Source: an uncultured bacterium
GTDB lineage: Bacteria > Hydrogenedentota > Hydrogenedentia > Hydrogenedentales > CAILVY01
Length of the DNA: 64,000 nucleotides
NCBI GenBank assembly: GCA_937951485.1
Contig: CALEDJ010000015.1
Span: forward strand, 1 to 64,000
Reading direction: 5' to 3'
A program made the position numbers and the translations under genes. Positions 15,535 through 46,461 of the stretch are shown here, piece after piece (within the stretch, counting starts at the first letter, position 1; each line of letters begins with the position of its first letter). Below the pieces are notes generated by a model, which worked only from the letters and a program-made list of their open reading frames with translations, searched no databases and was not told the DNA's origin.

Positions 15535-15571
15535 TTGCGGTATTCCGCAAGGGCATTGTGGATTGCCGCAA
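15535..15571. promoter_or_regulatory. Paired enhancer-like dyads upstream of the cooS promoter
   Basis: TTGCGG-TATT-CCGCAA (15535-15550, perfect dyad) and TTGTGG-ATTG-CCGCAA (15556-15571) start 21 bp apart, two helical turns. They lie 145-181 bp upstream of the -24 GG of the sigma54 promoter at 15716. The same paired motif precedes the other three sigma54 promoters of the island. Probable binding sites of the regulator encoded at 21997-23373. Confidence 0.75.
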
Positions 15572-15713
15572 TTCGGTCCGGTGGTACGCCCCCCAGGCGC
15601 CCGGGATATTGATTTTTTTGTTCTGGTCATTTCATCGAAAAGGATTATACGCAACAACATATTTCAGAGACAGCGGCCTGAAGGCCCTCCGCTGCGCCCC
15701 CCGGACCGCGTGA

Positions 15714-15731
15714 AAGGCACGGGAATTGCTC
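15714..15731 (+). promoter_or_regulatory. Sigma54 (-24/-12) promoter of the CO dehydrogenase operon
   Basis: GGCACGGGAATTGCT: GG at 15716-15717 and GC at 15728-15729, with the required 10 bp between them. Transcription should start near 15741, 70 nt before the cooS ATG at 15811. Confidence 0.8.
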
Positions 15732-15810
15732 ATTGGAACGCGCATGATGATGAATTTTACCAGTTTAATGCGGTTACTCAAACTTGACGACAACAGGTAA
15801 AGGAGTGCAC

Positions 15811-17781
15811 ATGCCGGAAGCGAAAAGGGTTTCAGCGGACGTTGCCGCAGATGAGATGGTGCGATTGGCGCAGGAACGCGGCGACAGACTGGCGCATGAC
15901 CGTTATCAGGCGATGCGGCCGCAATGCGGTTTCGGGCAGTTGGGGCTGTGCTGCCATAATTGCAATATGGGGCCGTGCCGGATTGACCCGTTTGGCCAGG
16001 GGACCAGGGAAGGCATCTGCGGCGCATCGGCGGACGTGATTGCAGCGCGGAATCTGGCCCGCCGTGCCGCGGTTGGCTCCGCGGCCCATTCGGACCATGG
16101 CCGCAGTATTGCCATGACGCTGCTGGAAACGGCGCGCGGCCAGGCGCAAGGGTATTCCATCAAAGGACCGGCCAAACTGCTGGCGCTGGCGAAGGAGTGG
16201 GGGATTGCGACGGACAAGCGCAGCCTGGAGGAGATTGCAGAGGAGGTGGCGCTGGCGGCGCTGGAGGACTTTGGGCGGCAGGACGGCGGCCTTCGGTTTG
16301 TCTCCCGCGCACCGGCAAAGGTGCAGGCGCGCTGGGAAAGTCACGGCGTGATGCCGCGCGGCGTTGATCGCGATATTGTGGGGGTGTTGCACAGCACGAA
16401 TATGGGCGGATCCAACGAGCCGTATCATTTGCTCCGCAGTTGCGTGCGGGCGGGCCTGGTGGACGGATGGGGCGGCTCAATGGTCGCCACAGAACTGAGC
16501 GACATCCTGTTCGGCGAACCCGCGCCGCTGGTATCCGAGGCGAACCTGGGCGTACTTAAGGAGGATCATGTCAACATTCTCGTTCATGGCCATGAACCCG
16601 TGCTTTCCGACGCGCTGGTGGCCGCCTCGCAAACCGACGAAGTGATGGCGGCGTGTGAGGCGGTAGGCGCGAAGGGCATTCAGTTGGCGGGGATTTGCTG
16701 CACGGCCAACGAAATTCTCATGCGCCACGGCGTACCCATCGCGGGCAACCTGCTCCACCAGGAATTTGCCCTGGTCACGGGGGCCGTGGACATGATGGTG
16801 GTGGATATCCAGTGCATTTTCCCGTCGTTGCGCGCAGTGGCGGGCAAGTATCACACGAAAATCGTCAGCACTTCGCCCAAGGCCCATTTTGAGGGGTTCA
16901 CCCACATCGAGTTCGACGAACGCCGCGCGCTGGACAGTGCGCGCACGCTGCTGTTGACCGGCATCCAGAATTTTGCGAACCGCGACCCAGGGAAGGTGCA
17001 CATCCCCACGGACAAGTCGCCATTGATTGCGGGATTTACCACCGAGGGCGTCTTTGATCATTTGGGCGGGCGCTACCGGCCCTCGTACCGCCCGTTGAAC
17101 AACGCCATCATAGACGGCCGTATCCGAGGCGTGGTCGGCATTGTCGGCTGCAACACCGTGAAGATCACGCAGGACGAGGCCCATCTGACGCTTGCCAAGG
17201 AATTGCTGCGCCACGATGTACTGATTGTGCAGACGGGGTGTTCGGCGATTGCCTGCGGGAAGGCGGGTCTGTTGACTCCGGAAGCGGTGGAACTGTACGC
17301 GGGGGCCGGGCTTCAGGAAGTATGCGATGCGGTGGGCTTGCCGCCGTGCCTTCATTTGGGCGCGTGCGTGGACAACACGCGCATCCTCACCGCGTGCATC
17401 GAGATATGCCGCGAAGGCGGCTTGGGCGATGACTTTGCGGAGTTGCCGGTTGCGGGGGCTGCGCCGGAATGGATGAGCGACAAGGCGATTGCCATCGGGT
17501 TCTACGTGGTCGGCTCGGGCATCTTTACCGTGGTCGGCGATTCGCTCCCGATTATGGGCAGCCCCCGGGTTGCAGACTACCTGACGGGCGGCATGGAAGA
17601 GGATTTCGGCGCCCGATTCGCTTTCGAGCGCGACCCGCTCAAGGCGGCGGCGCTTATTGTCGAGCATTTGAACGCCAAACGCGAGGCGCTGCATTTGTCG
17701 CCCATGATCTACGAGCCGCGACCGGCGGAAACCCTCGGCAAGAGGTGGCGCGCCGGCGGCGTCGCACTGGCGGCCGTATAG
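15811..17781 (+). CDS. cooS: Anaerobic Ni-Fe carbon monoxide dehydrogenase, catalytic subunit
   Basis: 656 residues; ATG 15811 chosen for its AAAGGAG 7 nt upstream. It interconverts CO and CO2 with low-potential electrons. The N-terminus holds CGFGQLGLCCHNCNMGPC: C39 and C47 (D-cluster), C48, C51, C56 and C70 (B-cluster). C-cluster ligands are all present: H261 (GHEP), C296/C297 (GICCTANE), C335 (DIQC), C447 (GCNTVK), C477 (TGCSAIACG) and C519 (HLGAC). It heads a unit with a CooF-like ferredoxin and a NADH-dehydrogenase-like module, and is the only CODH in a window that also encodes AcsB, so it may serve both CO oxidation and acetyl-CoA synthesis (the AcsA role). First gene behind a sigma54 promoter. 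Confidence 0.96.
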   Translation: MPEAKRVSADVAADEMVRLAQERGDRLAHDRYQAMRPQCGFGQLGLCCHNCNMGPCRIDPFGQGTREGICGASADVIAARNLARRAAVGSAAHSDHGRSIAMTLLETARGQAQGYSIKGPAKLLALAKEWGIATDKRSLEEIAEEVALAALEDFGRQDGGLRFVSRAPAKVQARWESHGVMPRGVDRDIVGVLHSTNMGGSNEPYHLLRSCVRAGLVDGWGGSMVATELSDILFGEPAPLVSEANLGVLKEDHVNILVHGHEPVLSDALVAASQTDEVMAACEAVGAKGIQLAGICCTANEILMRHGVPIAGNLLHQEFALVTGAVDMMVVDIQCIFPSLRAVAGKYHTKIVSTSPKAHFEGFTHIEFDERRALDSARTLLLTGIQNFANRDPGKVHIPTDKSPLIAGFTTEGVFDHLGGRYRPSYRPLNNAIIDGRIRGVVGIVGCNTVKITQDEAHLTLAKELLRHDVLIVQTGCSAIACGKAGLLTPEAVELYAGAGLQEVCDAVGLPPCLHLGACVDNTRILTACIEICREGGLGDDFAELPVAGAAPEWMSDKAIAIGFYVVGSGIFTVVGDSLPIMGSPRVADYLTGGMEEDFGARFAFERDPLKAAALIVEHLNAKREALHLSPMIYEPRPAETLGKRWRAGGVALAAV

Positions 17782-45462: not shown

Positions 45463-45505
45463 CGGTCATTCCTGTACAGCAATGGGCAGAGGGGACGGGA
45501 ACAGG

Positions 45506-46282
45506 TCATGCATTCTTTTCGACCTCCCGCATGATGGCGTCAAGAATGGCGCATATCTCCCGGCGTTGCGGTTCTTTGCCCGTGTATGGGGAACATCCTT
45601 CGAGGTCTGCCCGGGCAATCTCCGGATCGAAGCAGATTGTGCCCAGAAGCGGCATTCCCTGCAACAGTCCGGTGAGACCGTTCAGGTCCATGCCGGGGGT
45701 AACCTTGTTAATTACGACGCCGAGGCGTGGAATGTGGATTTCCTCGGCGAGTTTGCGGATGGTGAGGGCGGTCTGGATACTTCTCAGGCCGGGTTCGGCC
45801 ACGATAATCATCATGGACACCGCTTCGGCGGTGGCCCGCCCAAGGTGCTCCACGCCGGCTTCCATATCCAGGATGACCGCCTCTTGGGGCCGTAACAGTA
45901 CATGAGTAACCAGGGCTTTGAGCAGCGCGCTTTCCGGGCAAATGCAGCCGCTTCCGCCCGTAGACACGCCGCCCAGCGTCAACAATTGCACACCGTGAAT
46001 GATGCGCGCGTACTTTTCCGGCAGATCGCGCACGTCCGGGTTAATCTTGAAATACGTGCCGTAGCCGCTTTTGGAGCCTGTCCGTTCGCGGATCAGGTCC
46101 TTCATCTGGCTCAGGGGCGCCGGCATCTCCTCAGGAGGCACTCCCAACGCCGAGGCAAGATTTGCGTCTGGATCTGCGTCAATAGCGATCACCGGGCGTC
46201 CCTGGTCCGCCAAGGTCCTGGCCAGCAATGCCGCCAATGTGGTTTTCCCTGTCCCCCCTTTTCCCGTGATTGCAATCTTCAT
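45506..46282 (-). CDS. CooC/AcsF-type nickel-insertion ATPase, second copy
   Basis: 258 residues; ATG 46282 chosen because AGGAG stands about 9 nt upstream. Walker A GKGGTGKTT at 8-16, DADPDANLASALG, CxC motif GSGCICPESALL and a conserved LDMEAGVEHLGR. It is the only minus-strand gene inside the island and is divergent from acsB, sharing a 525-bp control region with it. Likely serves Ni loading of AcsB (AcsF role) or CooS. It differs clearly from the plus-strand copy at 23827. Confidence 0.9.
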   Translation of the reverse strand: MKIAITGKGGTGKTTLAALLARTLADQGRPVIAIDADPDANLASALGVPPEEMPAPLSQMKDLIRERTGSKSGYGTYFKINPDVRDLPEKYARIIHGVQLLTLGGVSTGGSGCICPESALLKALVTHVLLRPQEAVILDMEAGVEHLGRATAEAVSMMIIVAEPGLRSIQTALTIRKLAEEIHIPRLGVVINKVTPGMDLNGLTGLLQGMPLLGTICFDPEIARADLEGCSPYTGKEPQRREICAILDAIMREVEKNA

Positions 46283-46425
46283 ATTCCCATCTCCTCTGTG
46301 GGTCTGCATTTCGCCATATATTGCGTCGGATTTTTCATCTCCCTTTTGTTGCAACATCATTGGTTCGGCATGTTATTCCGATGCGCCATTGTCACGCAAC
46401 AGGATGTGCAGCATGCTCTCGTGGG

Positions 46426-46461
46426 TTGCGGAATTTCGCAAACTCTTGGGGATTGCCGTAA
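46426..46461. promoter_or_regulatory. Paired enhancer-like dyads upstream of acsB
   Basis: TTGCGG-AATT-TCGCAA (46426-46441) and TTGGGG-ATTG-CCGTAA (46446-46461) start 20 bp apart and lie 152-187 bp upstream of the sigma54 promoter at 46613. A weaker third match, TTCCCG-CTTC-CCGCAA, is at 46483-46498. The region also separates acsB from the divergent cooC copy, so these sites could influence both. Confidence 0.72.

Follow-up and report, generated by a model that had tools for sequence, protein, structure and literature searches.

The window analysed here, 64,000 nucleotides in length (positions 1-64000 of contig C15, part of the 4.55-Mb genome G000), contains a Wood-Ljungdahl cluster that extends from 15.8 to 55.2 kb according to Pfam and NCBIfam gene assignments. 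The cluster comprises four operons on the + strand which, judged by their predicted gene content, jointly encode the Wood-Ljungdahl pathway. Operon 1 (15811..21599) encodes CooS (CO dehydrogenase), an Fe-S protein and NuoE/F/G-like subunits. It is followed by the gene of an NtrC-type enhancer-binding protein (EBP; 21997..23373, +) and by operon 2 (23827..35835), with CooC1, AcsD, formate-THF ligase, HdrC/B/A-like proteins, an MvhD-like protein, MetV and MetF. Operon 3 (36078..43884) contains an unnamed ORF, NuoE/F-like subunits, formate dehydrogenase and MobA, while a sensor histidine kinase gene (44152..45462, +) lies between it and the CooC2 ATPase gene (45506..46360, -). The latter is divergent from acsB, the first gene of operon 4 (46808..55248; acsB start codon inferred), which further encodes AcsC, RACo, AcsE, a small ORF, a DUF3786 protein and FolD. 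The unnamed ORF of operon 3 (36078-36770, 230 aa) is the gene nearest to promoter 3, precedes those of NuoE/F and formate dehydrogenase, and has no Pfam or NCBIfam match. No Rfam match was found within the window.

Each operon is preceded by a predicted sigma-54 promoter on the + strand: AGGCACGGGAATTGCT at 15715..15730, GGGCACAGGAGTTGCT at 23664..23679, TGGCACATGATTTGCT at 35915..35930 and AGGCACAGGACTTGCT at 46612..46627. The pattern GGCAC-N5-TTGC occurs in the 64-kb window only at these four promoters, all on the + strand and all before operons, and they account for 4 of the 16 GGCAC-N5-TTGCW sites genome-wide. RpoN is encoded in the same genome (G000:C45; PF04552, E 4.8e-61).

A preliminary description of this DNA had reported eight 16-bp dyads of the form TTGCGG-N4-CCGCAA, arranged as one pair upstream of each of the four promoters. 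All eight are present: pair 1 at 15535-15550 and 15556-15571, upstream of the cooS operon; pair 2 at 23467-23482 and 23488-23503; pair 3 at 35773-35788 and 35795-35810, inside the 3' end of metF; and pair 4 at 46426-46441 and 46446-46461. The dyad starts are separated by 21, 21, 22 and 20 bp for pairs 1-4, as had been claimed, and the reported distance of 106-198 bp upstream of the -24 element is reproduced almost exactly at 105-198 bp (the first dyad starts 143-198 bp and the second ends 105-161 bp before the -24 GG). Repeated dyads 20-22 bp apart, on the same helical face and 105-198 bp upstream, are the layout expected for EBP sites. The individual sites carry, in order, 0, 1, 1, 2, 3, 1, 1 and 2 mismatches to the consensus; thus only one is perfect, and the site at 35773 (CTGCGCGATTCCGTAA) is weak when taken alone. 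No dyad pair accompanies the EBP gene itself. An additional lone dyad, TTGCGGCATCTCGCAG, is located at 23713-23728 in the cooC1 leader, approximately 50 bp downstream of the promoter 2 -24 element, and could be a downstream operator or a chance occurrence. Another single dyad with one mismatch, TTGCGGCCTATCGCAA, lies at 43676-43691 inside mobA, approximately 480 bp upstream of the kinase gene, with no sigma-54 site nearby.

We compared the specificity of the tandem pair with that of the single dyad. Pairs whose two sites total no more than 4 mismatches, at offsets of 20-22 bp, occur 4 times in the 64-kb window, against a single occurrence in 5 Mb of Markov DNA. When matrices were built leaving out one pair at a time, each of the four pairs outscored every position of the 5-Mb Markov background. 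Within the window the four pairs score 32-43, with the next best pair at 12.9. In a search of the 4.55-Mb genome with a pair model, which is sequence-only and partly circular as it was derived, on both strands, from the four pairs themselves and one from a relative (G058, see below), the four pairs were recovered at E 1e-6 to 7e-4, and the next match followed at E 0.019. Single dyads with at most one mismatch, on the other hand, number 44 genome-wide against 39 in a reversed control. This shows no enrichment, and a single-site scan would therefore fail: it is the pair that constitutes the signal, and the single-dyad scan was rejected as a means of finding the regulon. The proposed use of the shared motif as a search pattern thus holds for the tandem pair, which is specific to the four promoters, and fails for the single dyad, which is as common elsewhere in the genome as a control. 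Further regulon members had been anticipated; none were found in this genome by either the pair model or the single-dyad scan. The genome's other GGCAC-N5-TTGCW sites have no single site with at most one mismatch just upstream, and a perfect single site at C15:74912 falls within a TPR-like ORF. Weaker pair-model matches at G000:C38:80942 and, in another genome, G048:C235:33648 were inspected and have no Wood-Ljungdahl genes nearby.

The phylum set searched for conservation comprised one order with 68 genomes. One of these, G058 ("Ca. Hydrogenedentota", locus L028), carries a dyad pair together with the sigma-54 element GGGCACGTCAATTGCA before cooS, which is here divergent from cooC2; the pair has a spacing of 22 bp, lies 155 bp before the -24 element, and RpoN is also present. 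Across the resulting five promoters (four in the window and that of G058), the dyads are 70-72% identical and the -24/-12 element 77%, whereas the flanking 16-bp blocks are only 19-33% identical. A second relative, G045, possesses a similar cluster with the same cooC2|cooS...acsB order, but without the dyad pair or a good sigma-54 element. Conservation upstream of the same genes, a check proposed with the motif, gives a mixed picture, with the pair present before cooS in G058 and absent in G045. RpoN was not found in G045; as this genome has 63 EBP-like matches, the absence probably reflects assembly loss. The pair model gave no match judged real in the other 66 genomes of the phylum, where the strongest of the weak matches were inspected, and nothing in 13 outside genomes with a related acsB. 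In place of the sigma-54 element, the G045 contig (L016, JAACEL010000001.1) has a TTGACA...TAATGT-like sigma-70 element upstream of cooS. The title of this record, Nitrospiraceae OTbin.67, is probably wrong as to taxonomy, since the MAG corresponds to G045, which belongs to the same order as the window.

The EBP encoded at 21997-23373 is the only one found within the cluster, where it sits between two of the promoters. It consists of a receiver domain (PF00072), a sigma-54 AAA+ domain with the GAFTGA motif (PF00158) and a Fis-type helix-turn-helix (HTH; PF02954). Its scores fall short of the cut-off for every named NCBIfam equivalog among those listed, including ntrC (TIGR01818; 435.7 against 558.6, which places it outside NtrC (NR-I) proper) and AtoC (417 against 714). 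A candidate partner is the histidine kinase at 44152-45462, the N-terminus of which contains a hydrophobic stretch, identified by eye, and a Cys-rich segment that weakly matches the NCBIfam two_CW_domain, at 22.5 bits where the cut-off is 35. Our guess is that the kinase senses a redox or metal signal.

Kinase-EBP pairs were also found linked to related clusters in other phyla. Such a pair lies beside cooC2 in MAGs labelled Actinomycetota (G069, G071) and Ca. Brocadiia (G082), and the same pair occurs on a short contig in G072. In a tree of best-hit EBPs, the window EBP joins those of G069, G071, G072 and G082 with support of 97/94; when more paralogues were included, the grouping was kept in the best tree, with support falling to 88/22. 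A tree neighbour in G058 (G058:C86, L240), placed on a very long branch, was examined and set aside; its HTH is different. Searches of G058 with the full-length EBP and with its HTH region yielded no EBP closer than approximately 43% to the cluster EBP; this genome is 84% complete.

Taken together, the geometry, the sequence and the genomic specificity of the pairs, the presence of RpoN and of an EBP within the cluster, and the recurrence before cooS in G058 support the earlier reading of the dyads as EBP sites. We consider it probable that the pairs are upstream activating sequences (bacterial enhancers), most likely for the EBP encoded at 21997-23373, which would coordinate the four Wood-Ljungdahl operons. 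For the cluster EBP as the binder, the tree and the linked kinase-EBP pairs provide moderate evidence. Counting against the overall reading are the missing orthologue in G058, the lack of a dyad pair at the EBP gene, the G045 cluster with neither pair nor promoter, the support lost on adding paralogues and the other dyad arrangement seen in other phyla. By analogy with established EBP biology, each 16-bp dyad would bind one dimer of the NtrC-family response regulator, and two dimers placed two helical turns apart on the same DNA face may seed the active AAA+ oligomer. Oligomerisation would follow phosphorylation of the EBP, perhaps by the kinase encoded at 44152-45462. The oligomer would then loop over 105-200 bp to reach RNA polymerase-sigma54 at the -24/-12 promoter, which would be opened through ATP hydrolysis by the EBP, with coordinate on/off control of the four operons as the outcome. 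Without an activator, sigma-54 promoters stay silent, a property well matched to switching a costly, metal-rich pathway in an all-or-none manner. As the pair is absent elsewhere in the genome, one activator probably switches on the whole pathway.

The dyads might also serve as enhancer sites of these sigma-54 promoters while being bound by a different EBP. With 54 EBP-like matches in the genome, a protein other than the cluster EBP could be the binder, and G058 carries the motif with no close orthologue of the cluster EBP. Set against this, G058 is incomplete, the sole EBP found in the cluster sits between two of the promoters, and the EBPs of the kinase-EBP pairs that accompany related clusters of other phyla fall together with it in trees; we therefore regard a different binder as unlikely. 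A more distant reading assigns the dyads to an unrelated dimeric factor, a repressor or global regulator that happens to act on the same operons. Many HTH dimers typically recognise symmetric 16-bp dyads, and a far-upstream position is compatible with other roles. However, the pair and the -24/-12 promoter co-occur strictly, in all five cases and at a consistent distance of 105-161 bp; the pair is absent elsewhere in the genome, both are absent in G045, and a repressor acting at -105 to -198 would be unusual. This makes such a factor highly improbable.

Finally, the motif could be a product of chance or of duplicated upstream DNA, a mere by-product of recent common ancestry of the four regions. 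The gene order does differ, with cooC2 divergent from acsB in the window and from cooS in relatives, so that one of these promoter regions could derive from the other. Nevertheless, flanks compared between promoters are at chance identity (19-29%) when the dyads reach 70-72%, and no position in the 5-Mb background equals the scores of the pairs. We give this explanation hardly any credence, and retain that of enhancer sites most likely served by the cluster EBP.

The architecture is ordinary for an EBP regulon (PMC4641369). The window EBP resembles NtrC/AtoC-type EBPs and their upstream activating sequences in its receiver, AAA+ and Fis-type HTH domains and in its presumed sites, tandem same-face dyads approximately 100-200 bp upstream of a -24/-12 promoter, and differs in lying under the NCBIfam ntrC and AtoC equivalog cut-offs. 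We know of no named EBP with the site TTGCGG-N4-CCGCAA. In the Desulfovibrio vulgaris sigma-54 regulome, EBPs are often encoded next to their target promoters, most regulons span one to four operons and many EBPs have a motif of their own (PMC4641369). The regulon proposed here is alike in these respects; unlike those regulons, it covers a whole Wood-Ljungdahl cluster, and in the main text of that study the site TTGCGG/CCGCAA does not occur, nor does the term "carbon monoxide". In acetogens the same pathway is under coordinate control, but not by sigma-54: the TetR-family protein CAETHG_0459 acts with sigma-A (PMC6873888), and in Sporomusa a role was described for SigH, the SigL cluster described there being one of betaine metabolism (PMC12456013). 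Little is known of how transcription of the Wood-Ljungdahl pathway is controlled; for acetogens, a 2019 paper still described the promoter motifs and regulators involved as unknown (PMC6873888). Our literature search turned up no account of Wood-Ljungdahl genes controlled by sigma-54, although this absence is weak evidence given the thin coverage of subscription journals. Both the motif and sigma-54 control of the whole cluster appear to be new. If correct, the proposal defines an enhancer motif, points to a candidate two-component system and names four target operons, and hence offers a directly testable on/off switch for the whole CO2/CO-fixing pathway of uncultured bacteria.

The clusters in other phyla differ from that of the window in the dyad itself. 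Sigma-54-like elements are found ahead of cooS in G069, G071 and G082 (CGGCACGATTTTTGCT, CGGCACGGGCTTTGCT and TGGCATGGTTATTGCT); for TGGCATGGTTATTGCT, at a contig end, adjacency to cooS is inferred, as its contig closes with the same 10 bases with which the cooS contig L022 begins. Approximately 90-190 bp upstream lies a different 16-bp dyad, TGCCGA-N4-(A/T)CGGCA, which alone shows no clear genome-wide enrichment. These dyads are approximately 99 bp apart or single, so the tandem 21-bp geometry is not general. The HTH helices differ between the window and other-phyla EBPs, as do the dyads, with tails of LKLSTFRDKLAKHGM in the former and (L/I)PRTTLQ(S/A)K in the latter. It may be, at somewhat less than even odds, that a dedicated kinase-EBP system travels with this Wood-Ljungdahl cluster lineage across Hydrogenedentota, Brocadiia and MAGs labelled Actinomycetota and places the pathway under sigma-54, its DNA specificity having switched (TTGCGG-N4-CCGCAA versus TGCCGA-N4-TCGGCA) together with its recognition helix. 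The EBP and its site would then be a natural example of joint change. On the G082 contig with the Wood-Ljungdahl-linked kinase-EBP pair (L209, G082:C116), two perfect TGCCGA-N4-TCGGCA dyads at 4662 and 4754 lie just upstream of a citrate synthase-like ORF, a possible extra target of the regulator.
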